DNA of 64,000 nt from Ancylostoma caninum. Lineage: Eukaryota; Nematoda; Chromadorea; Rhabditida; Ancylostomatidae. The notes under the pieces were generated by a model. The model was given only the letters and a program-made list of their open reading frames with translations, was not told the origin of the DNA and did not search any database. This document shows, piece after piece, positions 14,693-33,421 of this stretch. Position numbers and translations under genes: made by a program. Where the stretch lies: the NCBI GenBank assembly GCA_037903475.1, contig JBAJFG010000362.1, forward strand, positions 1,116,001-1,180,000, in the 5' to 3' direction. Every line of letters begins with the position of its first letter. Position 1 is the first letter of the stretch.

Positions 14693-15637
14693 TGAAAGGG
14701 ATGCGATAAAGCACTTGTTGGGGTTCGAAAAGTTTGCATTTTCCTTTCTGGACATTCTATGTTGAAATCTGCTTATCTCCAAGCTGCCACGAGCAGGTAA
14801 GCGCAGGTAGGGTTGACTTTGATTTTGAGTGCCAAGTGAAGTGCGGGTGAGCCGACAGCATTTACAGTGCGACCCGATGGCGATTACAGAGCGACCCGAG
14901 GATAACGCGAAGGGTCACCGGGTAATCGCCGTCGGGTCGCCCTGTGTTATTGCCTGAGTCGTCTCTTCGTTATCAGTCCTTCTTGATCAACAACAATAGC
15001 TGATGTGGAGGTATTGACCAGTTTCATGATTGGTTGCACCATAGCATGGTGAGTTTTTGAAAGGCTGATCATCACAGTAGACCTCTTGCTGTTCGCCAAC
15101 ATCTACGACAAGATCCGAATAGGCCTTGAACCGCGAATCCACCGCTGGAAGAAACTTTAGAGTACTGACCGATTTTCAAGGGTATATTGGACATCAGCTG
15201 CTCGACAGGTTGGATGACGCCTTTGGACTAACGTGCCCCGACGCATCCCTACCACACCTAGCATTTAACCGTAGATAGAGCTGTCCGATGAAGTCTTCCA
15301 CATTGTCAGCCGCTGGTGCAGCTCAGCCATCGCTGGATCCATTCATGGGTGTTTCCACAACTTCCCGGCTCAGGCGCACCTAACACACCAATGTTGATTC
15401 GTTGAATGACATCTTCCCCCACCTAGTGACGGAAATGCACGGCGTTTGACCCGTTTCTTAGCATCTTCCACACTATTGCGTTTCGACGGTCCTCATCTTT
15501 CATGTTTGCTTATCATCTGCTCGCTCTACTACTCTAACAACATCCTACTGATTTTAGCCATTTATATGACTTGATGATCACGGGCCAATCTCATTCATCT
15601 TTACAGAGTTGAAAACAACGTTCGGTCATCAGACTAA

Positions 15638-15911
15638 GAGTATCCCCAGACTTTGCCAGCAATCGTAGCGATCGCCACATGGATAATGAAGGACACCCGA
15701 GAAGTAAGAAGGATGATAATGAATCGGGCGTGGCGATCGATAGGCGTCGCTTCCACTCTAGAAAACAGGCGATGAGAAGCGAAGAGCTCCGCTTGATGGC
15801 GATCTACGGCGATGTAACGTAGCAATCAACACGTATCGTTATTATCATCGTTACCTTTATATCGCCGGTTCATTCTAATTCATTGTGAACTGGCGAAGTC
15901 TGGGGATACTC
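15638..15911. mobile_element. Tourist-like MITE, 274 bp, TAA target duplication
   Basis: The ends are inverted repeats starting GAGTATCCCCAGACTTTGCC on the left, with the reverse complement (one or two differences) ending at 15911. TAA flanks both sides (15635-15637 and 15912-15914). A 3-bp TWA-type duplication and short terminal inverted repeats are typical of PIF/Harbinger-derived MITEs. There is no transposase, so it is non-autonomous. It lies about 770 bp upstream of the GDPD-A start codon. Confidence 0.65.
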
Positions 15912-15976
15912 TAAGCATGGATAAGGGCAATTTATACTGTGGATACCGTAAGCATGGATAAGGGCAATTTATACTG
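15912..15976. repeat. Short tandem duplication, 37-bp period
   Basis: A 28-bp block starting TAAGCATGGATAAGGGC occurs identically at 15912 and 15949, immediately outside the MITE. Confidence 0.75.
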
Positions 15977-16102
15977 AAGCGTGTACGTCAAACGAACGCA
16001 TCCATTTGCGAAGGACTTCCCATGAAGACTGGTCAACGTGGCATGTGCTTCCACAATGAGAAGAACGTGCAGCTGCCTCGATGCCGTAAACGCGTGTGTC
16101 TG

Positions 16103-16347
16103 AGAGTATCACCAGACTGCCAGTTCAAAATGAATAAAAATGAAGTGGCGATATAACAGATAAAGATCGTGGAAATGATACATATCGATTGCTACGTTAC
16201 ATCGCCATGGATCGCTGCCAACGGAGCTCATCACACTTTAAGATGTACCCAAAATGAACTGACGTTGTGAGTGATAGCGATAGTGGAAACGATGCCTATC
16301 GACCGCCACGCATCATTTATTATCATCCTTCTGACTTCTGGGGTCTC
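16103..16347. mobile_element. Second, decayed copy of the same MITE family
   Basis: The left end, GAGTATCACCAGACTGCCAG, matches the terminal repeat of the element at 15638 with a few changes, and a diverged right end (CTTCTGGGGTCTCCTC) lies at about 16332-16347. Internal GATAGCGAT/ATCGCC-rich sequence is shared with the first copy. It ends about 330 bp before the GDPD-A ATG, so it may lie in that gene's promoter. Confidence 0.5.
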
Positions 16348-16680
16348 CTCATTCCACTTTCTCTATCGCACTTCATTGGCACATTCATCAGAATGCTTAC
16401 GAGAGCACTACTTCAAATTCTATTGCGAAATCCATCAGAATCAAAGTCGATAACTTTCTTTAGCTTCCGTCATGGCAGTGAGGAAACAAAAAACTTCTGG
16501 TGAAAGTAAATAATCTTTCGAAATTTCGGAGGCAGCATGTACGCCTGGCTTTCAGGCACTACAACTGTGTGAGGGGCCTGCCAGATATGCCAGCGCACTG
16601 TGAGCCAGGTCATGCCCAATACAACCAAGGTCTCAAAAAGGATGCTGTCGACAAAAAACAAAAAAAAATCACTAGAGTAA

Positions 16681-19600
16681 ATGGAAAATATCAATTGTTG
16701 CAGGCACATATTAACAGCGATCCTGCTTGCCATTGTTATTGGGAATTTTGAATTACTACTGAAGATTGTTGCAATCTTCCCTATTCTACTAACCATTTGC
16801 TTCTATATTTTCAAAAACAACAACGTCAAAGGTAAAAATGTGAGTGGTTTGTAACGAAAGGTTAAAAAATAAGCCGATGTTCGTGCTTGCAAGCGTTCCA
16901 TACAGAAAGATAAATTCTTCGCGGGATTGCACTTGGGTGGTCACCGTGGATCTCCACATGAAGCACCAGAAAATTCGATAGAAGGCTTCATTAAGGTAAT
17001 TTACTCACCACTAGCCGCATTGCCATTATCAATATAACAAAAGCCAAACACAAGTGACTTTCTGTTGGAAAGGCTGCGCCTGATTTAGCCCCAGAACCCA
17101 TAGCCCAAAAATCCTTTTGGGGCAGAACCGCACGCCTGACCGTCAGTGGACACTCGAGACTTTCTAAGCTGAGTGTGAGAGGCAATTTACGACTACATGC
17201 GAGAGATAGATACATAGCGAATGCGTCTTGAGCCAATCGAGCGCGACTCGGACTCTTACTCGGACATTCGCGCGTTTGGAGCGCCGGTGAACCCGTCCAC
17301 TTTTGACCGCTACAGGCTTCCAACAGGTAGTCGTGGGTGGGGCAGGAATACTTGCTGAAGGTGCGGATGGAGCAGGAAAACCTGCTGTGAGCGCACATAA
17401 GGCAGGGTTTACGCAAGTATTTCTGCACCCTGTTTTTTTTTCCTCCATTGCTACGTGGCAACCGAAGTGTATCTAAGCCGGCAGACGACTGTGAAAGCCT
17501 AGTATAGTCTTCGCTGTGGCGAAAACTAGACGCCCCTATGTGACTTATCTGGCCAAGTGAGGCCAGGTTGAAACTGTGGCTTAGTGTACCGTTTGGCCAG
17601 ACAAGGTGCTGCGATGCGGTCGCGTGCCGACGCGGAGCAGATGGAAAGTCCGCATCGCAGCAGATGTCCGGCTCGTCGCGCGCTGGCGCAGGGAGAGCAT
17701 ACGTGAACTCTTTTTTTGTAGTATTTTTGTTGACTTAATTCTGTCATCCGCGTAACAGAATCACCGCAGGTCAAATTCAGGATAAGGCGCAACTAACGGC
17801 GAAATAGGCGGAAACAACTCCGACCACATCTGCGTTTGTCCCGCAGGTGTCATGCCGCGAGAAACAGTATGGGCCCACTCCTCAAACTTCCGACTATAAT
17901 AGTTTCATCAACATCATGAGATTTCCTTTACCCTCATATTTCTCTCCCAAACACCTTTTCCAATCTTCGATCTGCTCATCAACGATATGCACATAGCCAA
18001 TTCATATCCCCAATTGCAAGAATGACATCAGTACAATGAAAGAACTAGACCGAAAAAATGTTAAGCTGGTCAGGTTGGTTACGGCAGCGAAATTGTGAAT
18101 GACGTTCACAATCAGTATGGAATGGGCCTGACGGCGATCTGACGTCTTCAGCGAACGCGGAACATCAGTGCAGACGACGGCGCCGAACCATGGCCTCTGC
18201 GCTTAGCGGTCTTTGGAGCGATCTTCGAAGTCGAATTGAGTCGATCTGGTGATCGGAAAAAGAACGATATGAACCCGTTGAAAAAAAAAACGCCGTATAT
18301 ATGCCGCTTCCGGCAGTGGGTGGACGTAACCCTAGGGAGTACACGGCTGGGAATGAGCGCTCACCTTGTATTTCGCTGTAGGACCAATTCGCCCCTGTCA
18401 AAGGCATCCCTCAAAGGCAGCACCCGTCGAAACCATCGTGTTCGTGATTTCGCCGGATTTTGAGGTTCTTGGGGGTGTACTGCTCATATCCGGTGATGAA
18501 ATCGCGTGAAACCCCCGAGAAAGCCGGAAAAACGCGATGCTGCCTTCCGTGCGCGGACGAGTATCCCGACGGCGTACTGCGTGCGCGAATAGGTTCCAGC
18601 ACGGAGGCAGGGAATCGGCCCGCATGCGTTTAAAGGCGTAAGCTGGTGCGTCGAGCCCTCCGAAGCACTGGCCGATCGAGCGTGCACGCAACGGCAATTC
18701 GTCGTTTTCTGCAGGTAAGCCTTTACTGTGAGTGTTCCTTGCAGATTCGTGATGTGCGCGACGCCTACTTTAGGCTTCGCAGCTCAGGTCCGAGTCGAGG
18801 ATTTGGACTCGTGCCGCCTTTAAAGTGAATTTGTGGCGGAGATTCACTACAAGCAGTTCATTACAATGCATTTCTTCTCTTCGAACACTTGGTACAACTG
18901 GCCGCTGTACCAATAGGTGTCGACTGGGAGAACGGCCGCTATTCACTGGCCGCTTCAGTTGACAAACCCAGCCTTCCCGAATGCCCGGTCGAAAGGACGA
19001 GTAGGAAGGTAATAAAGGATGAAGACATCAGCTGGGTGAAACATATTATAGTCTATAGTCCGTTTAACTCAGCTGTTGTCTGTAGAAGCACGGACAGCCA
19101 AGTGGAGCAGCGGATCTCAATCATTCATAAACAATGATCAGGTTGGCTAAAATCCAGTCGATTATAGAAGAAAGCTAGTAGTACGGAAATTCGGACGGGC
19201 CTGGCGATAAGTCATCTTTTCCTATATCTGATGAGAATCTTCAGACTTGTGTTGCCTTTATACTTCTATCGATCAGTATGGACCCATAGCGGCGTCGAAC
19301 CTGAAGCTATTCTGTACAGGCAACTGCGCAACCTGAGGCATAGTTGTTAGAGGCGCTGTGGCCAATAGAAGGCTATCGTGGACAACGATGCTCAGAACAT
19401 ACGTTTCGGAGCAGTAGCGCTATAGCGCTGTACCCACTCGATATGCACACTTCCGCCTCAGAGGAGGCCCATAACCGGCTGGCCCTCACTACCATTGCTG
19501 GCCGGGCTCTGACCCGGTGATTTTTTGGCCGGTAATGGTAGAGCTGGCCATTCGATCAAGGTGTCTGAGTTGGTTCAATCAAAGCCGTAATGACCCCATT

Positions 19601-22600
19601 TGGATGTGTTGCCGCTTTTCTTTACGGATTTGGCGCAACCCGTTCTGCATACTCGTCAACAAAATGTCCAGTACTTGTCAAATTTTCGCACTCGCCCTTG
19701 AATGCTCTAGTGTGGTTTATTTCAGGCAAAGCAAGCAAAATGTGAACTAGTCGAATTCGACATTCATCTCTCAGCTGATGCAGTGCCGGTTCTGATACAT
19801 GATGAGACTACAACTCGAACCTCAGAAGAAAATGTTGCTATCAGCGATACATCGTTGGAAAACATAAAGAAAATCCCACTGAAAGAAGTCAGGTGAGGAT
19901 TTGAAGTGGGATTCGCCATGGTGAACATTCAGGTCACCTCTTTTCCAAGCTATCAGTCCAAATGAAAAACTCAGGCACTTTCAGGTGACCAGCGGCTTCC
20001 CTAAATCTGACGGGCCTAGTAAGGGGCGAAAACTGGTCAGCAATTGGGTGCGCGGGCGGTCAGCTCCTGAACGAGAGCCGACCAGCCGCGCGACCAGTAG
20101 ATGACGGGCCGCGCCCTTCTTGGAATGCTTGGGACAGCTTCCGTACTCGCTGCTTTCTACTCTACTAAATTTCTATGCTGACATCCACATAACACACATC
20201 ATATCCACGATTCCAATTTATTTTATTCATGCAGATCTTCCTATACAAATATGTAGTCCTAACACGGAAATTCTGTTTACCGAATATAGAATTGAGCCAA
20301 CGATGAGCTTTTCCTTCTACATATTTTGCAGCCCCTCGTAGAAGGGTCTGTTGTTCGTTTGGAGCATTTCACGAATATCACTAGAGTCAGCGCATCTAGC
20401 TCGCCCAGAATCCGTTAAAATCTTGCAGTCGAAATAAGGTGAGATACCACCTTTCAATTAATTACTCATCATTCATGGGAGCTTGTTTGATGCTCAGAAA
20501 GATTAGAGGTTCGGGAACTTCAGCTTTAACTTAACTTTAACTTTACTTTCCCATCGGACTTGAGAAGAAATGAGATGTGAACTTAGTTCTTCATCAAGTT
20601 ATGGAACGCAGAACCTCATCTACGAAGCTCTGGAACTCTTGGAAATCCGGCGTAACGAAAACAAAATTCGTGAACAAATTTGTGCCTTGCACAGTCTTCA
20701 CCACATCATACGACAAGAATGAAACACCAGCACCATCTTTGAAAGAATGGTAATCATTGTCATAGCTGCTCCGCCCACAAAATAGGTAGCACGGTCGGTC
20801 CGCTAAAATAGGAATGAGTGCGCGGTTGGTCCGCTAAGATAATAAGGGGTGCGGGGAGGTCCCATAGCATAAAGAAGGGTGCGCGGGCGGTCCTCTGAAA
20901 GTGCCTGAGAAAGTTCAGAATGTACAAGTGATGTTGATAGAAATACAGTAGCAGCCAAGAAGGTATGATCACTAGCTATCGGTAAAAGCATCTTTTGCTA
21001 CGAGTCACCTATGGATCGAGCTGACGCAACAATAGTTGCATCATAAACTCCAACTCCCCTTGGCTTCCATTGATTTTGTCCAATATTTTCACTTCCAGTT
21101 GCTGAGAGACTAAAACCTGTACCACTGTAGGAATATTAGAACCTTGGTGTTTTTACCACAAATTTCAGAACCCTGACCATAAAAAACACTCACTTTCGGA
21201 AATCTATAACCCTATATACTTAAAGTACCACTTAGAGTCGTCATTGAAATGCAGCGTGAGAAAAGGCACTTCAATTCCCACCACATCCTCAAATTCCGTC
21301 TTCAAACCGCAGTTGAAAGATGGTAAAAGGTTTCCATCAGTGCCATTGGTCATATCTTTCTGATCGCTACCGTATAATGTGTAGATGATGTGCAAAGTTT
21401 TAGTTCTAAAATCACTATTGTATCTTGTTGAAAGAAGTTAAAGATGTAAGTTTAGCGGTGTTGGTGCTGGTATACCGACGCTAGTGGAGGCTATCGATTG
21501 GTGCCTGCAGAACAAAATGCGCATGATCTTCGATGTCAAGAGCGCGGAAGCGAAGGTTATTCCATCTTTTTCTTCGAGAAAATTTGCATTGAGATTCTTG
21601 ATTGCGTCATACAAGCGACTTTGAAGGATATGGAGGGGAAAGGATGGATCGCGATGCACTTTTGACGTAGTCGTATGTAAATGGGATGTATTCATTCGCA
21701 ACGTCGCGGCTATTTGAGGTAGCCACACGGTTGTCATCCATGATGTACATATATGTATATACATGCCGCGTTGATCAGCTTTCATGAAGAATCCTATCAA
21801 TGCATACGTTTAACGCGCTCGCGCATCACAAAAAAGGCGTCCATAATAGCATCATTTGACAGACAAGGAATGTCAGTCTACTGGGTTGTGTTGTCCTGCA
21901 AACGCATAAACCGCTTCCCTCGTTTGAATCAATCGTGAATATTAACATTAATAATGTGAAGATATCTTCTCAGCAACTTATGGAATTGATCGCAGCAAAG
22001 ATCCCGGACCGGCGCCACTCCACTTTGTGGGGAGCGGAAATGATTGTAGTTGTGGTTGGGGCCAGGTCCGTATATTAGCTACAGTTCCATACTAGCGTGG
22101 GCGTCGTCTGGCTGTTCAAAATAACCTCGCCGAGACGAACGTTTTTATACGCTCTTCGGAGCGACAGTTTAGAGTGCTCAATGAGCACAGATATTCATTT
22201 CTTAGTACTGACCACAATTTGCTTTCAGATGATAAGTTCATTGACACAACTCATCAAAGAGAAGAACTTGTATGACAAAGCAATCATCTCGAGCTTCAAC
22301 CCAATAGTTCCTTATATGATTAAACGAGTTGACAAAAACATACTAACCAGTAAGTTCGAAGTTTTGCGAATCCCAGACATAGGGAAATTAGCTAAGACAT
22401 TATGTTGAGTAGTTATGGAATCATACACATCTGAGTCGTTTGCCAGCTATTTTGCAGGTTTTACCAGCCGGTTGGGATATATGACGTATATGGATGACGA
22501 TAAAAGATACCCATTCGATACAACTTACACATCAGTCCTCTACATGATACTCGACGACTTCGTTGAACTTGGTTTGAAGCCTACCAGTTCTTCTGCACAC

Positions 22601-22978
22601 TTGCCCTTCATTGGAGAAATTATTCAGGAATTCGATCATTTCTTCTGCCATTGTTTTTGGGAGTCGACATGCTTCTTCTTCACTATAAAAATATTAACGG
22701 GTGTGTCGTTTGCCTTCTGGAAGAATATAAAGATCACTCGGGTAATTCCATCAGTTTCTTGCAGTTACTTGGTTAATGATTCTCGTTCTTATGGGATGCA
22801 TGTGATTGCTTGGACCGTAAACAAACGAACTACTGCCAACTTTCTTCGTTCCATCAACGTTAGCTTCATTTATTTTTTCTTTATTTTTGTAGCAAGTTGA
22901 TGCAAATCATTTCAGGTCCCTTTCCTCACGGATTATCCGCAAAATTTAAGCGATATCAAGGAATCAACACCAGCTTAA
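16681..22978 (+). CDS. Membrane-anchored glycerophosphodiester phosphodiesterase (GDE1-like), GDPD-A
   Basis: It is predicted to hydrolyse glycerophosphodiesters or related lysolipids at a membrane. Nine exons join in phase to 326 aa: 16681-16839, 16906-16995, 19726-19892, 21456-21555, 22229-22349, 22458-22571, 22628-22700, 22765-22858, 22916-22978. Residues 9-46 are hydrophobic (one or two N-terminal TM helices), followed by the GDPD barrel. The catalytic HRG is at 66-68 and APENS at 73-77. The metal ligands are Glu93 and Asp95 in VEFD, the second catalytic His is 108 in IHDET, FDVK is at 164-167 and AWTVN at 290-294. IPTLVEA (145-151) is the usual GDPD strand-helix. Another hydrophobic stretch lies at about 252-265. 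All expected active-site residues are present. A poly-A signal AATAAA lies at 23092. It is followed by a diverged tandem copy at 24936; an antisense gene is nested in intron 3. Confidence 0.93.
16996..19725 (+). other. Intron 2 of GDPD-A, GC-rich repeats
   Basis: This 2.73-kb intron holds unusually GC-rich blocks (about 17100-17450, 17530-17710, 18500-18720) in which all six frames stay open, giving many overlapping ORFs that I regard as artefacts of base composition. The block at 17530-17710, read on the minus strand, resembles 28320-28430 read on the plus strand. It is repeat-derived; no exon is supported. Confidence 0.55.
19972..20913. repeat. Inverted-repeat-bounded segment with GCGCGGGCGGTC motifs
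   Basis: CTCAGGCACTTTCAG at 19972 recurs inverted as CTGAAAGTGCCTGAG ending at about 20913, with AAA on both flanks. Inside both ends lie variants of GTGCGCGGGCGGTC (e.g. at about 20050, 20814, 20848, 20882). This suggests a non-autonomous DNA element. However, the last exon of the nested minus-strand gene (20594-20736) falls inside it, so a simple insertion is doubtful. Confidence 0.4.
20594..21405 (-). CDS. 3' part of an unrecognised gene nested antisense in GDPD-A intron 3
   Basis: Three minus-strand exons join perfectly in phase: 21405-21220, 21124-21009 and 20736-20594, ending in a TGA. They give about 148 residues. Acceptors are GATTTTAG, CCTACAG and TTTCAAAG; donors are AA|GTATAT and AG|GTGACT. 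The protein has an N-glycosylation-like NGTD, WYFNGTGFSLSATG, GVGVYDATIVASARSI and a C-terminal FVFVTPDFQEFQSFVDEVLR amphipathic helix. I do not recognise the family. The 5' end is missing: a possible first exon starts at an ATG at 21741-21739 with donor AA|GTCGCT near 21635. That would straddle GDPD-A exon 4 (21456-21555), so it is unproven. The three phase-consistent junctions make a chance origin unlikely. Confidence 0.6.
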
Positions 22979-24935
22979 TGATAATTTCAACAATTAAATT
23001 TTGCTTCAGTCTTTTCGCTGGACAAATGTGTACATCGTTCTCATGAAATCACTGCGCTTGTGGATAATTGTTAGGCAACTAGTAGTGACTGAATAAATTG
23101 TGGATACTCATTAGAACAAATCTTCAGCGTTGAAGGTAAAGGCATTGGAATTCGTGAACAGGCCTGTTTGTGACTGAAGACTAATACATCTAGATTCCAT
23201 CAGTGTCTCGGCATTAGGAAAGCTGAAATAAACCGAATACAAAATGTAAATAGAGAAATATGGCTTAGGCCATGATAATCCTTCACAACAGCAATCATTA
23301 CAGACTAAATTACAGAGAATTATTTTGCAAAAAAAGAAGCGACCTCGATGTCATTTTACGCACGTTTTTCCTCGTCTCTGTCATCGGTCCAACAATAATG
23401 ACTAGCTAGGAATAATAAGGATCAGTTTAGCTACCGAGGCAACATGAGGCAGACGCAACACATGTGATAATATGACCGAACTGATAATATGTTCCCCTAA
23501 CACATCAATGTAACCGACAAGTGGCGCTTTCCTCATATCAGGTTGCCCGAAAAGTTTGAGGACTGCGGCGCAGGCTCGATGCGTGCGCGTTTCTGGAGCG
23601 CCCGCCTACGCCGCCAATGCTATTTACTGTTGAATGCCTCAAACAAAATGGCCTAAAATGAAATGATGAACATCCAACACTAGCTGATTGATTTCTAGTA
23701 CACTATTCGCGCCGCCTCAAGAAAAGCATAAAAGGTCAAAGATGGGAATATGATTATTTGCTTCTTTTTGGTTATCAACACTATTTCCTCATTTCGCTAT
23801 CTTGCCAATGTCGTGTACACACACATTTTTCTGACTAGCGGGTTGATTTAGTTCTGTGATCTCGTCAGTAACCGCTGCCCGTCCTCGCATACCAATTCTC
23901 ATTGCTAAGTTATCGGGTAATCAAAGCTAGGTACGGATTTGATTATTCAGATAACATGAGAACGGTTCACTACTGGTTTAGATTCGAAGAAGAAAAATGA
24001 TTACTGACTAGTGTGTATGTAACTGTGTTCCATGGATATGGAACGGTCTATGAAGGGATTCTTACTACAACTGAAACTGAATAAAGTACTGTGTGAGAAC
24101 TAGCCCATCAAAATGTCTCCACTTCATCCGATATGTGCAATTTCGAGGAAGAAATCCATACGTGTGCTCTAGAGCATGCGATATCCTATGTGATGCAGGA
24201 TAGGCGGAGTCAGCCCTGATGCTGCCCAGACTTTGGTGAGAGGCACGAGCTTGCCGCCTCGAAATGATCTCTACGTTGACGATATACATGCCACGTTGAC
24301 AGTCCTCATGGAAATTTTGCCGAAGATGGATGCGTGCCTGCAAGGGGCGGCTGATACATACACCTAATATGTCAGCTCACTGAGAATTCTAACCAAGATC
24401 CTTTAGGAGCATTGATGGATCGTTCTTCACCCGATAACCACTGTCTGCCCTTTCATCAAGAATTTTGTTTAATGAAATATTGTCTGGTTGCTCTTCTTTT
24501 CGTGAGGTCGTTTTGTTTCGCGTTCTCTTCCTGTATAGAAGTCGCCTCCCCATCCGAGAAACACAATGCAGCGAGGAACGTATGGCTCATCAGAAAAAAA
24601 AACAAAAAGCCATGTTGTGGGGATCAAATGGTAAAATATAATCAGTGTTAATCTTGAGGATGACACGAAAGTCATCCTCCGCTTCAACTAAGAAAAAAGA
24701 AAGCTAGAAGAGGTAGATACACGGTAAACACCATTCACTTTTCATTCCGGCAAACGATGTTGCGACTGCAGATGCTCATCTGTGTCGGTGCGATGCTGTG
24801 AAGATCGGTAATCGATAAGTGAGAAGAATCAACGGCACAGAATACGATGCGAAAATGGAAGCAAATTTGAATTCACATCGAAGAACTCGATATTATGCAC
24901 GTAGCTGTCACGGTTCTTCTTGCATTTGTCGTCGC
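22979..24935. other. Spacer between GDPD-A and GDPD-B
   Basis: About 2 kb without a supported gene. It contains the GDPD-A poly-A signal at 23092 and a mariner-end-like string (CAGGTTGCCCGAAAAGTTTG, about 23540-23560) without a matching inverted partner. Short ORFs at 24065-24343 (minus) and 24412-24651 have no motif. The spacing is too wide for a typical nematode operon. Confidence 0.6.
23092..23097 (+). other. Poly-A signal of GDPD-A
   Basis: A canonical AATAAA lies 114 bp after the GDPD-A stop codon. Confidence 0.6.
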
Positions 24936-27900
24936 ATGGAGACCATCACCGACCACATTTCGGACTTCTTCTCATCGCACCTGACGGGGCCATTGTTGGC
25001 TTGGTTAGTTAAATCTTGCAACCATCCCTCGCCAAGTGTGCAAAGAGACACTCTTTCAGGTACATTTTTATCGTCCTTTGCATCCTCGTTCTAAGTCGAT
25101 GCAGAATCATCGTCGTGATTCTCTGTTGGACTCCACTCGTTCTAACTGTACTCTTCGCTATATTGAGAAATGACATCGACCGAGGCTTAAATGTTCGTTT
25201 TCCTTTGGAGTGTTTTATATTCTCGACAGTCAGCTGCATTCCACTTACCATAGTTATATAGTATATACGATTAGAACGTCATTGAAGAATTTGTTAGTAA
25301 GTGATCAATCAATGGTAGAAACGGAGTGATGTGCGTAAGATGACAAATTAAGGGCATTAGGTGCCTTAAAGAAACCTTATAACTCTACTTAATCACCAAC
25401 ACTTTTGATTGATCCATTTCTGTGGGTTAGGGGAACTTTGTATTTGGAATGTTTGGAACCTTGTGCTGTTCAACTTCCGAGGCGTTTCTAACAAGGTCAC
25501 TAATCCTGAGTCTCTTTCTCCTCCAGCGGTTGCATTTTATGCATTGATGCTTCCCCCCAATCTTCTCCTTGCATCTCTTTCGCATCAGTTTGGTTCCCGC
25601 TTCTTTCGCTCCATTGGAGCCAGTGGCGAACGTGGGCGACTGTGTCCCTAGCAGACACTCCATGGCGATCCCTGCTGACCGCTTCCGGAAGTACTGAGCT
25701 CCATTCCCATCTCGGGAAATGGCCAAGTCAAGCACCTGTAGTGCTTCACTCAACATCTTCGCGCCTATCAGGCTATTTTGGCGTCAATTACGTACATGAG
25801 ATGGCGCTGAGCTCCGTTTAGCACAGAGTAGTATAGAGAACGTAAATGATGCAAACGAAGGAAGGAACTCATGAAAAAAAAGCAAAGGAGATGTGAGAAT
25901 GGACGGCCGATGACGCTTACGAAATGACGTGTGAAAATGAGAGAACGAGAGTTCTAAAGCAGATTCCAGAAAGACAAAGATTATGAGCGGTAGGTCCAGT
26001 GCCTTCACCAAACTTTATTCAAAAAATCTATATAATGTGCGCGCTTATATCTCGGCTGTGCCGATCACACAAGGTGATATGAGAAGAAACATTCTCGACC
26101 TTGCACAAAATAGCAACAAAGGAAACTTTCTCTGTCTGCCATGTTCGACAGATATTGTCACTGAGAATCAAAAGCCAGTGGAGCCTCGTGGTGCTGAATT
26201 ACTTCGACGCTCCTTTCTGGGAAATCATATATAGCTGAATGCTCTCCGTATCCGCGGCAGTGAAAGCACATCGTCATATAATTTCTGCAGTGCGTTCCGC
26301 ACATACAGTTCCAAACATGAATCGCACTTGGATCCTTGGATCAGAACTTCTCTTTGCTGCTCAACTCTCATAACAGTCGTGCAGGAGACCAAGCACTGGG
26401 CTCCTGTGGCCTCAAAAAACGCGCATTTCATATTGCTCTCCTCACTCTTTCTGAAGGTTTCTCTGTAGAACCTCTTCTGTACCTCACGAGTGGAGTGGTG
26501 GAGCAGCTGCACTAGGATCAACTCGAAGTCATGAAGCGTTTGACGAGCGTGATTCATTTCGCTCTAAATTCTGCGTGCAGCTGCATTGTTCGACACTTCG
26601 TCTATGGCGCAGATTCGCTTTCAACTATTGGCACACGCTCATCCTCTTCTATTGACGCGAATTCCTCTAGCCAATCTTTAACTTTAACGGCTTAATTCTC
26701 TGCGCCAAACGGAGATTCAAACCCGTCCAAGAAGCGACTTCGTCCTGTGGGTGATCGTCAGGCCCAGCAATGAGTCACACAATGAGTTGCACAATCCTGT
26801 CCGACATCTCATTTGCCAACTGAACATTATACATTAGTATTTGAAAAGAAAATTTTCGAAGTAATATTCGAATAATTCGAAATTTTCGTTATTCGAGTAT
26901 TCGAGTAGTTCAAAAAGTCGAAATTTTCGATTATTCGACTACTCGAATCATTCGAAAAGTTAAAATATTCAACCATTCAAATATTCAAAAAGTCGAAATA
27001 TTAAATTATTCGAACATTTGAGTTATTCTTAAAGTTGAAACATTCTAGCATGTCATGTCCGTTCGATCGAGGTGACTCCGCGAGAGATTAGAGATTCTTT
27101 AAAGATTGGCATTCTTGCTATTTCAGAGCTCTGGCCATTTTACGCAGGTAATTTGAGCCTGAATTCTTGGGAAACTACCTAAATTTCCAGAGATGAGATT
27201 CACTTTGAATTTCAAGTAAAGACAAACAGCCGCACGAAAACAAACACAAATACTTGACAGAACGTGAACAGTGAAGAAAAGTGCTGATTTACGAAGAGCG
27301 GTCATGAGCAACTCCAGCAACACCCTGGCCTCATAACCATAGATTTGTAATATGCGCTGAAAAAATTCAAAAAAAATTACAAATATACTCTCTTACGTGA
27401 ACAAGCGTATGTATATCACATCAGCGGACAAAGGTGCATGTCCAAACCAGAACTTTAAATGTAACAGACATTACGGGAGATAAATCGTCATGCATTCTTT
27501 ATACAGAGGTCGAATTACTTTCATGGATTTTCTATTGGTGGTAATATAGCAGAAACGAAAGACGCACCTGAAAACAGTATGGCAGCGCTAGAACTGGTAT
27601 GTAGTTTTTGTATTTGCAAAATATCACTATTTGCCTAGAGTAGACCTTCACAGGCATTGAAAGGTTCAAAGTACGTTCTGTTCGATGTTCAATTAGCTAA
27701 CGATGGGGCAGCTGTGGTTATCAAAGACTCAACAACTGGAAGAACTACGGAGAAGGACATGAATGTGGCTCAGACGTCTTCCGCAGAACTTGCAAAACTG
27801 AATTTCAAGGGCGGAGGGTAAGTTCATAGAGGCACTGGTCTTTCATAAATGACATGGAAAATTTTCTTGCAGTGGAACTGTTCCTTTGCTCAAAGATATG

Positions 27901-30900
27901 ATGGATGAATGTAGAAAAAAGGGAGCAAAAGTTGTTCTACAAGTGCAGGAGAACTCGCAGGCGGTCTGTTTTTCAATAGTAATTAACAAATATTGAAATT
28001 TGTGCTCCTACCTTTCTATACAATGCGTGCCAACATGTTGCACTGGCGGTTCTTTTACCTCGAGCTTATTTTATTAAGCTTATTTTGTCGCCAGCGTTTG
28101 TCCCCCTCCACCCCCCCCTCTCCAAAGGCTGTGATTCGGGAAAGGTGAACGGATTCGCATTCCTCTAACCTAGGATGGCACCTCAATCTGGGCGCAGGGC
28201 TGTGTTCCCACTGTGGACTGGGTAAATGGATGCTTACCCAAGCTCATCCAACGAACGCGTATATACGCTCCGCGGCTGTGCTTGGAAAACGCTGCCGTCT
28301 CGCGGCCAGATCCACGCCGCATTCACACGCACGCATCTCGCCTGACCGATTATTGCGCTGGGCCACGATTTTACCCGGGCCATAGCCAGCCTGACGAGTC
28401 TCGCAGAGCTCGCCAAGCCTAAACCGAAGCGAAAACACGACCGTTATCCAGTTATCAGAGGTTATAATGCTCAGGCATGAAATGGCGCGAGATTTGAGAT
28501 AGCTTTATTTACGGTCGTGTTTGTTACGACACAGCTACAGTATTTAACTCTTCAACTCTCTAGCGAAATCATACATAAGTTATGCTAGTTAGGAAAGGGT
28601 TTCCTTTTTTATATTTTTGTTGTTTCTTTTTCCTTATTTTACTACCTAACAACTAATTTCGGGAAAAGTTTAAGCATTATAACAACATTGTGGATCTTGC
28701 TCTACTTTCTAATTTAAATGCTAGTCCTACACTATCCTGGAAAATCGTGAAAACAAAGCAAATTAATGAGCAAAACGGTTACCAAGCGACAGACAGTGGG
28801 CTGTAGAAGCAAAAAAGAGTGCATCAAATGCTGGAACAAGTAAGAAAAAATCCTGCAGATTTCAAAAACGTTGTGAGAGATCTTTGAAAGTTACACCCAC
28901 AGAAGTTTCCATGCCAAAGGTTTTGAGCATTTCGAAATTCGAGATACTGTGAAAGAACCCCTTGTGGTAGATATTGTGACATTTACAGCATACACATTAG
29001 GAGTTTCGGGCAAATTCGCCTATACATATAGCTGCTTGCGTCAGAATTTGAGGAAAATTTCCTCGCTCTTTGGAAATGAAACTCACTCTTCAGTTGACGA
29101 CTAACGACATTTTACTGTCCAATAAATTCAGACGTTTCTTCCATTGATTTTTGGAAGGCGAGCCATTGTTAGCCGAGAAAATTTCTTCACTTTACAGCTG
29201 TTAACGGAGATCAGCGATTATGTGAGGAAATACGATCTTTACTCCTCAGTGGTGGTGACCAGCTACACGGCTACGGTGCCGTTCTTCATGAAGCGACACG
29301 ACCCAAAAATGCTTACAGGCCTGATTTTTCTACATGGAGTTTCTATGGCTCTCACTATCGCTTTTCTATTTGACTTCTTTTTATTCATTCCGATAGCTTA
29401 TAGGATATCGAAGTCGGATTTTCAGCGTTGAATGTCACAGCATAAATCGCCTTGAAGCTCACAAGCCCTCAAAGCTCCGTTGAAAATCCGACGTGGATTT
29501 TGTAACAACCTGATATTTTCATCTCAGATGTGATTCTAGGGCTATCCTATAATCGATTTGGCACAATGGCTGATTTCATACGTAGTCATCCTGGTAGTCT
29601 CTTTTACAAATTCCTCGCTCAAATTATCGACGACTCCATGCAATTCCGTGAGTGATCATCAACATCTCCATTGCTGTCTACACGTTGGAAGACATTGCCA
29701 TGCTACACATCGATTAAGTGGTCGGGACCTTCTTGCTACCGAGATTTGTTGGAAGCGATGTAATCTTCCTGGGCCAAAATGACGTCAGCGTGTGAGTATT
29801 TCAGTCTCGGTTGCCACCTTGATAGCAGTCAAATGCTCTTGTAACCCACCCCTCTAACAAAATGTAGTTAATGGAGTCAGGTTAACCATGAGATTTGCTG
29901 AAAACATAGAGCGTATACAAACGCGTAAACAGACCATGTTGTACCGTTACTAACAGCATCTTAACCCACAGGAATTAACCGTTACCCGTCCGAGCAGTTG
30001 CACTATTTTGTGAGCTACTCAGCTGTTCTGAATTCCTAGGTTGTGGTCAGGTTCCAATTTTTTGAAACAATGGAACGAATCAAGCCATTAATAAGTGGAG
30101 GAAGGGGGTTGGGTATTATTGTACGAGATGTTGGAACAAGTTTTTCATATACCCCAAACCTTGGAAATCCAGCTGCTTCCTATAGCGGGTTGGGTATTAT
30201 CGAACGAGATGTTGGAACAAGTCTTTCATATATCCCAAACCTTGGAAATCCAGCTGCTTCCTATAGCGGGTTGGGTATTATTGTACGAGATGTTGGAGCA
30301 AGTCCCTCATATATCCCAAACCTTGAAACTCCAGCTGTTTCCCATAGCAAAGTACCTTTTTACGTACCCATTTTTGAAGGGTAACCGGTACCAGTAGGCT
30401 GAGGATGGCAGTCACGGGAGTTTTGGTCACAAATGTTCTGCCGGGTTCATGATCCACGAGATTTAAGGACGGCTCTGCAACAAAAACCAGCGTTAAAACG
30501 CCCTACTGCTACAGAATCGTTGGACTAGTACAAAAAACTGTAAACAACCAAGTCTCCATGAACAGGTGTCCCGACCTGTAAACAGCGCAGCAAAACTTTT
30601 TTTTGGAGAAATCTCGGCCATAACCATATCCAACGCTCTCGAACATCTCTGAATATGTGAAAATCTCGGACGCGAAATTTTCCGGAAGCGGTTTCTTCAA
30701 TATATAAAGCGTACGCGTCTCTCAATGTCAAAATCCCACAACAACCACATATGATTTGTGAAAAGGCATAGGTCAACGCCTCTAACGGTTTAAAACCAAG
30801 AAAAAGAAGCATAAGGTTGATTTCGGGCTTCCACGTACTATGGAGCTGCTCAACAGGATTCCACCTCCTGGTGAAAACCATGAAGACGACTTCTGATGCG

Positions 30901-31307
30901 GAATCCATTTTTATTCCTCGCTTACTTTCTCATCAACTTTTCAGAAACTTTGTGAAAGAAGCCAAGTCCAGGAAGATGATGGTTGTAGCGTTAGATGCGG
31001 ACAGCAAGACAGCACAGGAGTGGTTACGCGATGTTGCTGAGGTATTTGGTTTCTTTTCAAATGCTCAAGCTGTATAAAATTTCGCCTTGTGAGCCAGGCA
31101 TAAGTCAATAAAGGAAGGAATTTCTTCGATATCAGTTATTGTTGTACGCTAGTAGGCGAATGTCTTTATGTGGATGTTTTTTTTTCGCAACTGCTTTGAT
31201 CAACTGCTACATAAGTGTTGGACTTTCTTTTTCAGATTCCCTACTTCACAAGAAACTTGAAAGACATGAGTGGTGCCAGATACACTGGGCATGGAGAGCA
31301 AAATTAA
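24936..31307 (+). CDS. Catalytically dead GDPD paralogue (pseudoenzyme), GDPD-B
   Basis: Ten exons join in phase to 342 aa: 24936-25003, 25060-25192, 27507-27596, 27654-27817, 27873-27963, 29198-29318, 29528-29647, 29719-29791, 30945-31041, 31236-31307. Residues 23-60 carry two hydrophobic helices, as in GDPD-A. Exon phases match GDPD-A throughout, and three exons have equal lengths (90, 121 and 73 nt). The fold signature APENS (87-91), FDV (107-109), DST and FLLPRFVG are kept. The catalytic HRG is N-I-A (80-82), metal ligand Glu is Leu106, catalytic His is Lys121, FDVK has become LQVQ (174-177) and the WTVN Trp is Leu303. The frame is intact, with no internal stops, so it appears maintained, probably as a non-catalytic lipid-binding or regulatory protein (inference). 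One intron (after 29318) would use a GC donor. A small extra 56-bp intron splits the first TM exon. A poly-A signal follows the stop at once. Confidence 0.88.
25193..27506 (+). other. Intron 2 of GDPD-B
   Basis: A 2.3-kb intron with a weak donor (AAT|GTTCGT) and acceptor TATACAG. Minus-strand open frames at 25427-25756, 25784-26011 and 26225-26557 have protein-like patches (the last contains several Cys, and a frame-shifted continuation lies upstream). They show breaks and no motif I can name, so they are probably remains of a repeat-encoded protein. The TTCGAA-rich block at 26836-27040 is listed separately. Confidence 0.5.
26836..27040. repeat. ATTCGAAT/TTTTCGA low-complexity block
   Basis: About 200 bp of repeated ATTCGAA, TTCGAAAAT and AAAAGTCGAAAT words in both orientations. 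The words are close to self-complementary, so many short hairpins are possible. It lies in intron 2 of GDPD-B. Confidence 0.7.
28213..28437. repeat. GC-rich dispersed repeat
   Basis: This GC-rich block in intron 5 of GDPD-B is open in several frames on both strands. Its plus-strand translation (GPRFYPGHSQPDESRRAR) resembles the minus-strand translation of 17530-17600 (KPQFQPGLTWPDKSHRG), which suggests two diverged copies of one repeat family in opposite orientations. Confidence 0.4.
30106..30348. repeat. 81-bp minisatellite, three copies
   Basis: Three tandem copies of an 81-bp unit start at 30106, 30187 and 30268, each beginning GGGTTGGGTATTAT. Copies 1 and 2 are nearly identical and copy 3 is more diverged. 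Because 81 is a multiple of three, two frames stay open across the array, giving 27-residue protein repeats. It lies in intron 8 of GDPD-B. Confidence 0.9.
30525..30908 (-). CDS. Unrecognised antisense ORF in a GDPD-B intron (127 aa)
   Basis: An uninterrupted minus-strand frame from an ATG at 30908 contains a hydrophobic segment (EINLMLLFLGFKPLEALTYA, then FSQIICGCCGILTL), followed by a charged stretch (LRDAYALYIEETASGKFRV, RDVRERW). Its composition and codon use look protein-like, and the hydrophobic part could form one or two membrane helices. It ends just short of GDPD-B exon 9 (30945). No family is recognised and no flanking exons are clear. Confidence 0.27.
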   Translation of the reverse strand: MDSASEVVFMVFTRRWNPVEQLHSTWKPEINLMLLFLGFKPLEALTYAFSQIICGCCGILTLRDAYALYIEETASGKFRVRDFHIFRDVRERWIWLWPRFLQKKVLLRCLQVGTPVHGDLVVYSFLY

Positions 31308-31309
31308 TG

Positions 31310-31315
31310 AATAAA
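31310..31315 (+). other. Poly-A signal of GDPD-B
   Basis: AATAAA lies 2 nt after the GDPD-B stop codon, which would give a very short 3' UTR. Confidence 0.6.
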
Positions 31316-31655
31316 AGTTGTGAATGTCAGTGTGTTTCTCTACCCTGCATTCGCTACATTTTCGAAGCCCCGATTGCTGAATTTTGCGACGTCGTGGTGA
31401 TTTCCAATCTCGCCGAAGGGCACCGCCAGAAGCGCAAATGTTTGCGCGGGAATGGAGCGTAATTCATTCAATTAAGTTCTCGACGCCGAAATGTCGCCGT
31501 TATTTGGAGGGAGTGCTTCCTTATTTAGGCTTCAGATGAAATCGTTTCTGCCGAAGCTTTAGGTGTTTGCGTTCTCTTCTTGACTTGCATCTGATTCTTT
31601 TTCGATGGCTGACGAGAAAATTGGGAACGAACTAGTGTGAGGCTCTATGAAGAAG

Positions 31656-31875
31656 GCAAATAGACAATATTCATGTTAAGATATTGTGCTGAAATGTAAC
31701 TGGCGGTCAGTATAGTTGACGGGACTTTTGATAAATAAGCTGATATAAGAAAGCCATCCTATGGAGCAAATAGACAATATTCATGTTAAGATATTGTGCT
31801 GAAATGTAACTGGCGGTCAGTATAGTTGACGGGACTTTTGATAAATAAGCTGATATAAGAAAGCCATCCTATGGA
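31656..31875. repeat. Perfect 110-bp tandem duplication
   Basis: The block starting GCAAATAGACAATATTC at 31656 is repeated at 31766 with no differences that I can see over 110 bp. It lies just downstream of GDPD-B and is non-coding. Confidence 0.95.
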
Positions 31876-32408
31876 GCTGGTCCACGTTCGCTGTCTTAGT
31901 TTCTATGTACATATACCTGTCACTTCATCTGGCTCCTCCGACTCCTCTCTACGTAGTTCACAATTGTTCTAGTAAATGCTCATCATTCATTGTTCCCACA
32001 ATTTCAAAAATCTTGGAAACTTCCCTGGGACTGCTGATGAAACGCAAGGCATCAAAGAAGCCGCACAACTGGTCTAGTTCTTAGCCCTGAAATCGAAATG
32101 TTGAAATTCATATATAAACAGTTATAAAATTCATATATAATTCATATATAATTCATATATAAACAGTTTACACCATTCTTAGTGAGAATATATCTCTCGC
32201 TCTGATCTTTTTCGCTGTTGAAGGTTTTTGGACTTCATAGTTTCATGCAACTGCATGAAACTCTCCTCTTATTCATAATCTGTTGGTGTATTTGTTCTTC
32301 CTCAGACATTCCACGGATTGGAGCCGAACCGACTCCGCCCACTCTTGTCAATAGCAACGTAATAGCAACGGCCGTTGCCGCAGCAACGGTGGGTGCTATT
32401 GCGTTGCT

Positions 32409-32524
32409 GCTAGCAACCGACGGTTGCTATTGAGTTGCTATTCGGGCCACATATGGCGGCCATGTTCACTGACGGTTGCTATTGAGGCCCGAATAGCAAC
32501 TCAATAGCAACCGTCGGTTGCTAG
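32409..32524. repeat. Long hairpin in the left subterminal repeats
   Basis: CTAGCAACCGACGGTTGCTA and the bases after it, up to about 32447, recur inverted from about 32486 to 32524. This gives arms of about 39 bp with almost perfect pairing and a loop of roughly 38 bp. Confidence 0.8.
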
Positions 32525-33421
32525 CAAGTCTTTCTCATTCTCCACTCGTCATTGCCAGCAAGTCTCATTCTCAAGTCGTCTCTCGCCGAGTGCGGTCGAT
32601 ATCCTTTTTGTCTGATCACCTTGTTTTTGTCTGATGTCTGATTAGGTGAAACTGCATAGAGTGACTTCTGGTGAGGGTGTATCCTCTCAGGTCCCCTCAA
32701 GCGCTTCCTTGTTCCTTTTTAGGGGAGGGGTTCTGAAGAGAAATAATATTCCTTGAGAGGACTTTTAACCTCAAAAACTACTATTTCTATCTTGAAAACT
32801 TAGCATTACATCATCAACGAGATGTTTATAGCCTAGAAAATATTACACTTCTCTAAAATGGCAGCTGATGAAGTGTGCAACAAAAGTATGGTCTGTTAGT
32901 TCACAGAGAGCGCCTGATCCGACTTTGTCTGCAATTACGACTTTCCCGCAGAATGCGTTTGGAAGTATATTTTAGCGGATGGCAGTATGGAAAAATCAGA
33001 ATGGAAGGGATTACATCATATGCACTTCCAAAAGTGCAAAAATTAGACCAGTTAGCCAAAAAGTGACGAAGTCGTAACTGCGACCAAAATCGGTCTCACG
33101 CCCTCTGTGAGCTAATAAATTACTGTAGTGCAGTAGTGCGAGTTGCATGAGAATGAAGAATTGCGGTCGACAACGCAGTAATAAGTGCAAGTAAGAGAGG
33201 TGCCGCACGTAAATTAAAAGGGTGGTGACTTTACGCGTTGGCTGGTCCTGCGGCGCGTGAGCGGAGTTGGACGAGTTTTCCCCGCAGCCTTTACTTCATT
33301 GTAGGTTTAACGGCAAGTCTTATTCACCTGGCCCTGTAGATAACATAAAAGGGCTAGTTCTGCCCCAAATTTTGAGAAGTATTTCGCCTAACTTCACAAA
33401 GAGTCAGGGAGGGGTTATTTG

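Follow-up and report, generated by a model that had tools for sequence, protein, structure and literature searches.

A glycerophosphodiester phosphodiesterase paralogue lacking its catalytic histidines, probably a maintained pseudoenzyme, beside an intact relative in strongylid nematodes

We analysed a 64,000-nucleotide stretch of the nematode Ancylostoma caninum (assembly GCA_037903475.1, contig JBAJFG010000362.1, positions 1,116,001 to 1,180,000), referred to throughout as the window, in which two genes of the glycerophosphodiester phosphodiesterase (GDPD) family are head-to-tail neighbours: GDPD-A (15026-22978, 10 exons, 326 codons) and GDPD-B (24936-31307, 10 exons, 338 codons). A preliminary description of GDPD-B, drawn from the DNA letters alone, had presented it as a paralogue with an erased active site and an open ten-exon frame in the phases of GDPD-A, and this gene structure was recovered. 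GDPD-B has no stops or frameshifts in its 338 codons and a single terminal stop. Exons 1-9 are followed by introns of phase 2,0,0,2,0,1,1,2,0 in both genes (9/9 identical), with several exon lengths equal or nearly so. All 18 splice dinucleotides of GDPD-A are GT or AG, and 17 of the 18 in GDPD-B are canonical, the exception being the donor of intron 6 (29319), which is GC, not GT. The features of GDPD-B in window coordinates are as follows.

24936..25003, + strand, exon 1: residues 1-23, METITDHISDFFSSHLTGPLLAW; Trp23 codon split by the intron; N-terminus conserved in orthologues
25060..25192, + strand, exon 2, membrane anchor: two helices predicted in the A. ceylanicum orthologue (19-36, 38-58)
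27507..27596, + strand, exon 3: GGNIAETKDAPENS against GGHRGSPHEAPENS in GDPD-A; catalytic His and Arg gone, APENS retained
27654..27817, + strand, exon 4: metal Glu replaced by L106, metal Asp D108 retained, second catalytic His replaced by K121
27873..27963, + strand, exon 5: VLQVQ (LQVQ being 174-177) against IFDVK in GDPD-A
29198..29318, + strand, exon 6
29319..29320, + strand, non-canonical GC donor of intron 6: CAG/GCCTGA
29540..29647, + strand, exon 7
29719..29791, + strand, exon 8
30945..31041, + strand, exon 9: VVALDAD against VIAWTVN in GDPD-A; Trp replaced by L299
31236..31307, + strand, exon 10 with the stop codon

Comparison with GDPD-A exon by exon bore out the losses that had been proposed: HRG reads N80 I81 A82, the metal Glu is L106, the His is K121 and FDVK has become L174 Q175 V176 Q177. 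The loss of the Trp was also confirmed, but the site is L299 rather than the residue 303 given earlier, a numbering that probably came from taking exon 7 from four codons upstream. The broader statement that nearly every catalytic position is substituted holds at the listed sites but not at the metal Asp, D108, which is retained. The column register is fixed by the lengths and phases of the exons together with the motifs on either side (GG....APENS, F-D-V, D-x-T-x-x-R-T), which excludes a misaligned active site. In an alignment with the bacterial GDPD 2pz0 (Thermoanaerobacter tengcongensis), His17, Arg18, Glu44, Asp46, His59 and Glu119 correspond to Asn, Ile, Leu, Asp, Lys and Gln of GDPD-B; we take the functional roles of the bacterial positions to be those described by Shi et al. 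2008.

The homology of GDPD-B to GDPDs is not a matter of chance, because it scores 54.8 bits with the Pfam GDPD family (PF03009; cut-off 23.6) and shares 82 of 310 aligned residues (26.5%) with GDPD-A. GDPD-A itself scores 113.9 bits and four B orthologues score 46.7, 40.0, 40.5 and 58.9. Structure prediction gives GDPD-B a normal GDPD-type TIM barrel, and an N-terminal membrane helix is predicted ahead of it, as in the GDE4/GDE7-like subgroup. The predicted N-terminal helices span 19-36 and 38-58 in the A. ceylanicum B orthologue (P0001), and 2-24 and 29-48 in an A orthologue (P0012); these helices and the APENS motif seen in exon 3 agree with the earlier claim that both the anchor and APENS are kept.

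Homologue searches with GDPD-B returned ten B entries from seven strongylid species, A. caninum included, the remaining matches being distant GDPDs. The B entries are as follows.

A. ceylanicum: P0001, P0007
A. duodenale: P0002, P0008
A. caninum: P0003
Necator americanus: P0004, P0028
Oesophagostomum dentatum: P0005
Cylicocyclus nassatus: P0006
Heligmosomoides polygyrus: P0029

Whether orthologues carry a normal HRG was a check set beforehand. None of the seven entries that reach the site has one; all seven read NIA or NIG, and six strongylid species other than A. caninum show like losses at each of the sites that their entries reach. The metal Glu site is Leu or Met in 9/9 entries reaching it, and the second His site is Lys or Arg in 10/10. 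Site counts include P0003, P0007, P0008 and P0028, which are partial or come from the window species and are left out of the row-by-row comparison; P0029 is a partial protein that does not cover the HRG site. The metal Asp D108 is retained in six of seven B rows (Asn in Oesophagostomum), and no B row has all three acidic metal ligands, the first being Leu or Met throughout and the third Gln, Arg, Asn or, in Oesophagostomum, Glu. Of the distant matches, P0009, P0010 and P0030 were used in the tree only, P0010 also in the fold alignments. No B match came from Haemonchus, Trichostrongylus, Dictyocaulus or Nippostrongylus in a word-based search of the best 7993 candidates by shared words, a scope from which absence cannot be claimed.

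The gene model of GDPD-B is largely shared by these proteins. Starting exon 7 at 29540 gives MLTG-LSY, which matches the proteins of A. ceylanicum, A. duodenale (LTY) and Necator. Of eight orthologue entries covering the intron 6 junction, six are joined as in our model (P0001, P0002, P0004, P0006, P0028, P0029). P0003 and the Oesophagostomum entry P0005 have extra residues there, P0003 running 36 alignment columns into the intron; these residues may reflect a gene finder that disallows a non-GT donor. Apart from that stretch of P0003, P0003 and P0011, which are public proteins of A. caninum, are identical to GDPD-B and GDPD-A, respectively, where they overlap. They are recorded on a contig of 3,115,186 bases, whereas the contig of the window has 2,356,040, and seem to belong to a different assembly.

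GDPD-A, which retains HRG, EFD, IHDE, FDVK and AWTVN, is encoded by the following exons.

15026..15048, + strand, exon 1: MIGCTIAW, located from its similarity to P0019 of A. ceylanicum
16704-16839, 16906-16995, 19726-19892 and 21456-21555, + strand, exons 2-5
22229-22349, 22458-22571, 22628-22700, 22765-22858 and 22916-22978, + strand, exons 6-10

A search with GDPD-A found orthologues in Cylicocyclus, Necator, Haemonchus, Trichostrongylus, Dictyocaulus, Nippostrongylus, A. ceylanicum, Auanema and C. tropicalis. With the partial entries P0011, P0018 and P0021 and the distant matches P0023-P0027 set aside, all ten A rows (the window's included) retain His, Arg, Gly, Glu, Asp, His, Asp and Lys, and Trp is kept in the 8/8 that reach it. 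The A and B locus tags are consecutive in Necator (RB195_014839, RB195_014840) and three apart in A. ceylanicum (Y032_0085g1842, g1845; on equal-sized contigs), and the A-B pairing thus predates the hookworm genera. In Cylicocyclus, A and B lie on contigs of equal size (107,728,306), with no spacing given. In the public annotation of A. caninum, the GDPD-A model P0011 begins with unrelated residues and is missing the HRG exon, which hides the catalytic motif (window 15026-16995).

We next consider how B has evolved. The B rows form one clade in the tree, with a support of 100 and a long stem (0.76). Between species, B changes at about the rate of GDPD-A: the B/A distances are 0.138/0.236 from A. 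caninum to A. ceylanicum, 0.520/0.595 to Necator, 0.768/0.578 to Cylicocyclus and 0.879/0.786 between Necator and Cylicocyclus. A neutral copy would be expected to outpace a working enzyme clearly. As a rough guide, we simulated substitution in 2000 runs, with no insertions or deletions, with the protein differences assumed to be unselected and with only the window frame read as DNA. Placing the differences on one lineage gave 2.6, 5.8 and 7.5 stops for A. ceylanicum, Necator and Cylicocyclus (stop-free runs, 7%, 0.2% and 0%), and placing half of them gave 1.3, 3.3 and 4.4 (27%, 3.7% and 0.7%). Regional conservation in three matched species was higher in B than in A over residues 24-76, which comprise the anchor and linker (0.59 versus 0.45, p=0.0015), lower at the beta4-beta8 strand ends of the pocket (0.48 versus 0.72, p=0.0145) and unshifted on the beta1-beta3 side of the barrel mouth (0.77 versus 0.85, p=0.81), these permutation p values being uncorrected for four regions, which were picked after an unmatched comparison and two of which show no shift. 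Extra conservation of helix alpha4 in B, seen in unmatched species sets (0.81 versus 0.56), was gone in matched species (0.73 versus 0.71, p=0.50).

Several points weigh against a maintained gene with a dead site. In addition to the uncorrected p values, the nearest pair, with A. ceylanicum, is stop-free in more than a quarter of neutral runs when half of the differences are used, and conservation over 300 matched sites in three species is slightly lower in B than in A (0.561 versus 0.624). The orthologous proteins come from gene prediction, a procedure that steers clear of stop codons. The GC donor of intron 6 stands in a weak context, and correct splicing in A. caninum is not assured. Oesophagostomum B has Glu at 175, the residue usual at the equivalent position in bacterial GDPDs, and Heligmosomoides B has Phe at 205. 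GDPD-A is also present in species that gave no B match and is not obviously dependent on B.

Because the orthologues share the losses and the rate is close to that of GDPD-A, the B genes appear to be an old, maintained pseudoenzyme clade rather than a decaying copy. We consider it likely that GDPD-B is a maintained pseudoenzyme. The case is one of sequence comparison: loss of both catalytic His and one metal Glu in strongylids, an open frame in the window, an ordinary rate and an intact GDPD-A. The proposal in the preliminary description of a maintained pseudoenzyme beside an active relative is thus supported by the like losses in six other strongylid species and by the GDPD-A-like rate. A pseudoenzyme is defined, in the available text of PMC10211241, as lacking the conserved catalytic motif of its family, as GDPD-B does. 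The best explanation of the results as a whole, which we regard as likely, is that GDPD-B is a membrane-anchored pseudoenzyme with a GDPD barrel that would be unable to perform metal-dependent His/His phosphodiester hydrolysis and would work through binding.

This architecture resembles that of GDE4 (GDPD1) and GDE7 (GDPD3), mammalian membrane-bound lysophospholipase D enzymes in which an N-terminal membrane helix precedes the GDPD barrel, as predicted for GDPD-A and GDPD-B, although GDPD-B has two predicted N-terminal helices. The glycerol-phosphate site predicted for human GDE7 comprises H44, R45, E71, D73, H86, E150, K152, E180 and W277 in the accessible part of PMC10188492. These residues are of the same kinds and in the same order as the set retained in GDPD-A and mostly lost in GDPD-B, as matched by motif order with no human sequence aligned; GDPD-B has no counterparts of H44, R45, E71, H86, E150, K152 and W277 and retains the Asp alone. 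GDPD-A and its nematode orthologues share the gene structure, all nine intron phases and the domain layout of GDPD-B; they differ in keeping the whole site, whereas B carries a conserved extra N-terminal stretch ahead of the first helix.

Outside the family, Fam20A, MTMR13, cFLIP and an inactive S-adenosylmethionine decarboxylase homologue have likewise lost the motif and kept the fold, with an active relative in the same organism (PMC10211241, in the part available). They have other folds, and an effect on a partner is demonstrated there and only proposed for GDPD-B. Pseudoenzymes are described in the same text as well known among kinases, phosphatases and proteases, and its accessible portion names no GDPD among them. 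Plant GDPDL/SHV3 proteins form a diverged GDPD branch with roles beyond simple hydrolysis, but are GPI-anchored, and GDPDL1 is said to hydrolyse glycerophosphodiesters (PMC6726743, available sections); we liken them to GDPD-B by description only. We found no report of a non-catalytic nematode GDPD in the open-access literature, as far as the available text extends (including PMC9283691, PMC10188492, PMC11314389, PMC6299612, PMC6726743 and PMC10211241), and no open-access paper under the locus tags of the B orthologues. PMC9283691 counts nematode gde-1 homologues, apparently without an active-site check in its accessible part.

How a non-catalytic GDPD-B might act is a more tentative matter, and the regulator or lipid sensor named in the preliminary description is still a conjecture, as it was there. 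It would share its membrane with the GDE4/GDE7-like enzyme GDPD-A and might serve there as a non-catalytic partner or scaffold, regulating GDPD-A or another membrane protein; if GDPD-B is a pseudoenzyme, we hold this role to be plausible, with somewhat less than even chances. A protein partner is preferred over lipid binding because the anchor of GDPD-B shows more conservation than that of GDPD-A, and its beta4-beta8 pocket rim drifts. The main rival, which we think rather unlikely, is a lipid sensor or carrier, in which the dead site would still bind the head group of a lysophospholipid or glycerophosphodiester with no metal involved, Lys/Arg121 would touch the phosphate in the place of the catalytic His, and the signal or lipid would be passed on. 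Position 121 is basic in every B entry reaching it, which leaves room for a phosphate-binding role, the beta1-beta3 side is nearly as conserved as in GDPD-A, and D122 and APEN are invariant among the compared rows; however, the remainder of the pocket, formed by the beta4-beta8 side, shows the lowest conservation in comparison with GDPD-A, and the Glu/Asp-x-Lys, Phe and Trp sites vary among B orthologues.

An enzyme with a rebuilt active site and a different reaction seems improbable. Migrated catalytic residues do occur in some pseudoenzymes (PMC10211241, available text), and N80, I81, T84 and D86 are invariant in five B rows. However, no column is all-His in those five rows, whereas both catalytic columns are His in eight A rows, which argues against a His-dependent site; no B row has more than two acids at the metal site, and pocket residues 175, 177, 205 and 299 vary among orthologues. 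A young pseudogene decaying locally, to which the weak GC donor and the large, repeat-bearing introns might point, is rejected as very improbable, given the like losses in orthologues of six other species, together with the open frame, the GDPD-A-like rate and the agreement of the second A. caninum record, P0003, across the overlap save at intron 6.

Returning to the maintained pseudoenzyme, we venture, still more guardedly than for the partner role, that strongylids have held a dedicated non-catalytic GDPD beside a lysophospholipase-D-like enzyme since before the hookworm/Heligmosomoides split, where it may control the enzyme at the membrane or read worm or host lysophospholipid levels by means of a site that works without metal and has one position kept basic. 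The tree places B outside the Auanema and C. tropicalis A proteins and holds no mammalian sequence; the long B stem may be a source of misplacement. A strongylid-only duplication was not rejected by the approximately unbiased test (p=0.149; the other two trees, p=0.555 and 0.606).

A GDPD clade that lacks both catalytic His, yet evolves no more quickly than the active gene next to it, would offer a clear-cut example from nature of a fold retained for a role other than the reaction, with GDPD-A, of the same gene structure, as a built-in control. The worms that carry B are gut parasites and include hookworms of people and dogs. Databases file the B genes as GP-PDE domain protein or glycerophosphodiester phosphodiesterase, and metabolic reconstructions may thereby count an enzyme where there is probably none.

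Further family members were sought in the window and the genome. When 17 family proteins were run against the window by tblastn, five matches fell outside 15000-31400, of 15-34 residues and E >=0.26, none of them a credible third copy, and no Rfam family reached gathering scores within the window. A PF03009 search of the genome assembly (G000; 348 million bases, 638 contigs) gave eight exon-sized matches, one in GDPD-A and seven on contigs C42, C129 and C174, where other PF03009 genes lie (L001, L002, L004-L008); GDPD-B itself was unmatched, so B-like copies would escape this search. Several repeats were observed in and near GDPD-B. Intron 2 contains a diverged A+T-rich repeat of TTCGAAAAGTCGAAATTTTCGA-like units (26867-27051), and intron 8 contains three head-to-tail 81-base repeats (30103-30345; 94% and 88% to the first). 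Just downstream of the gene lies an exact 110-base tandem duplication (31656-31875), either a recent event or an assembly effect, and an inverted repeat at 32408-32526, with 44-base arms that are 98% complementary and 31 bases apart, resembles the end of a small mobile element.

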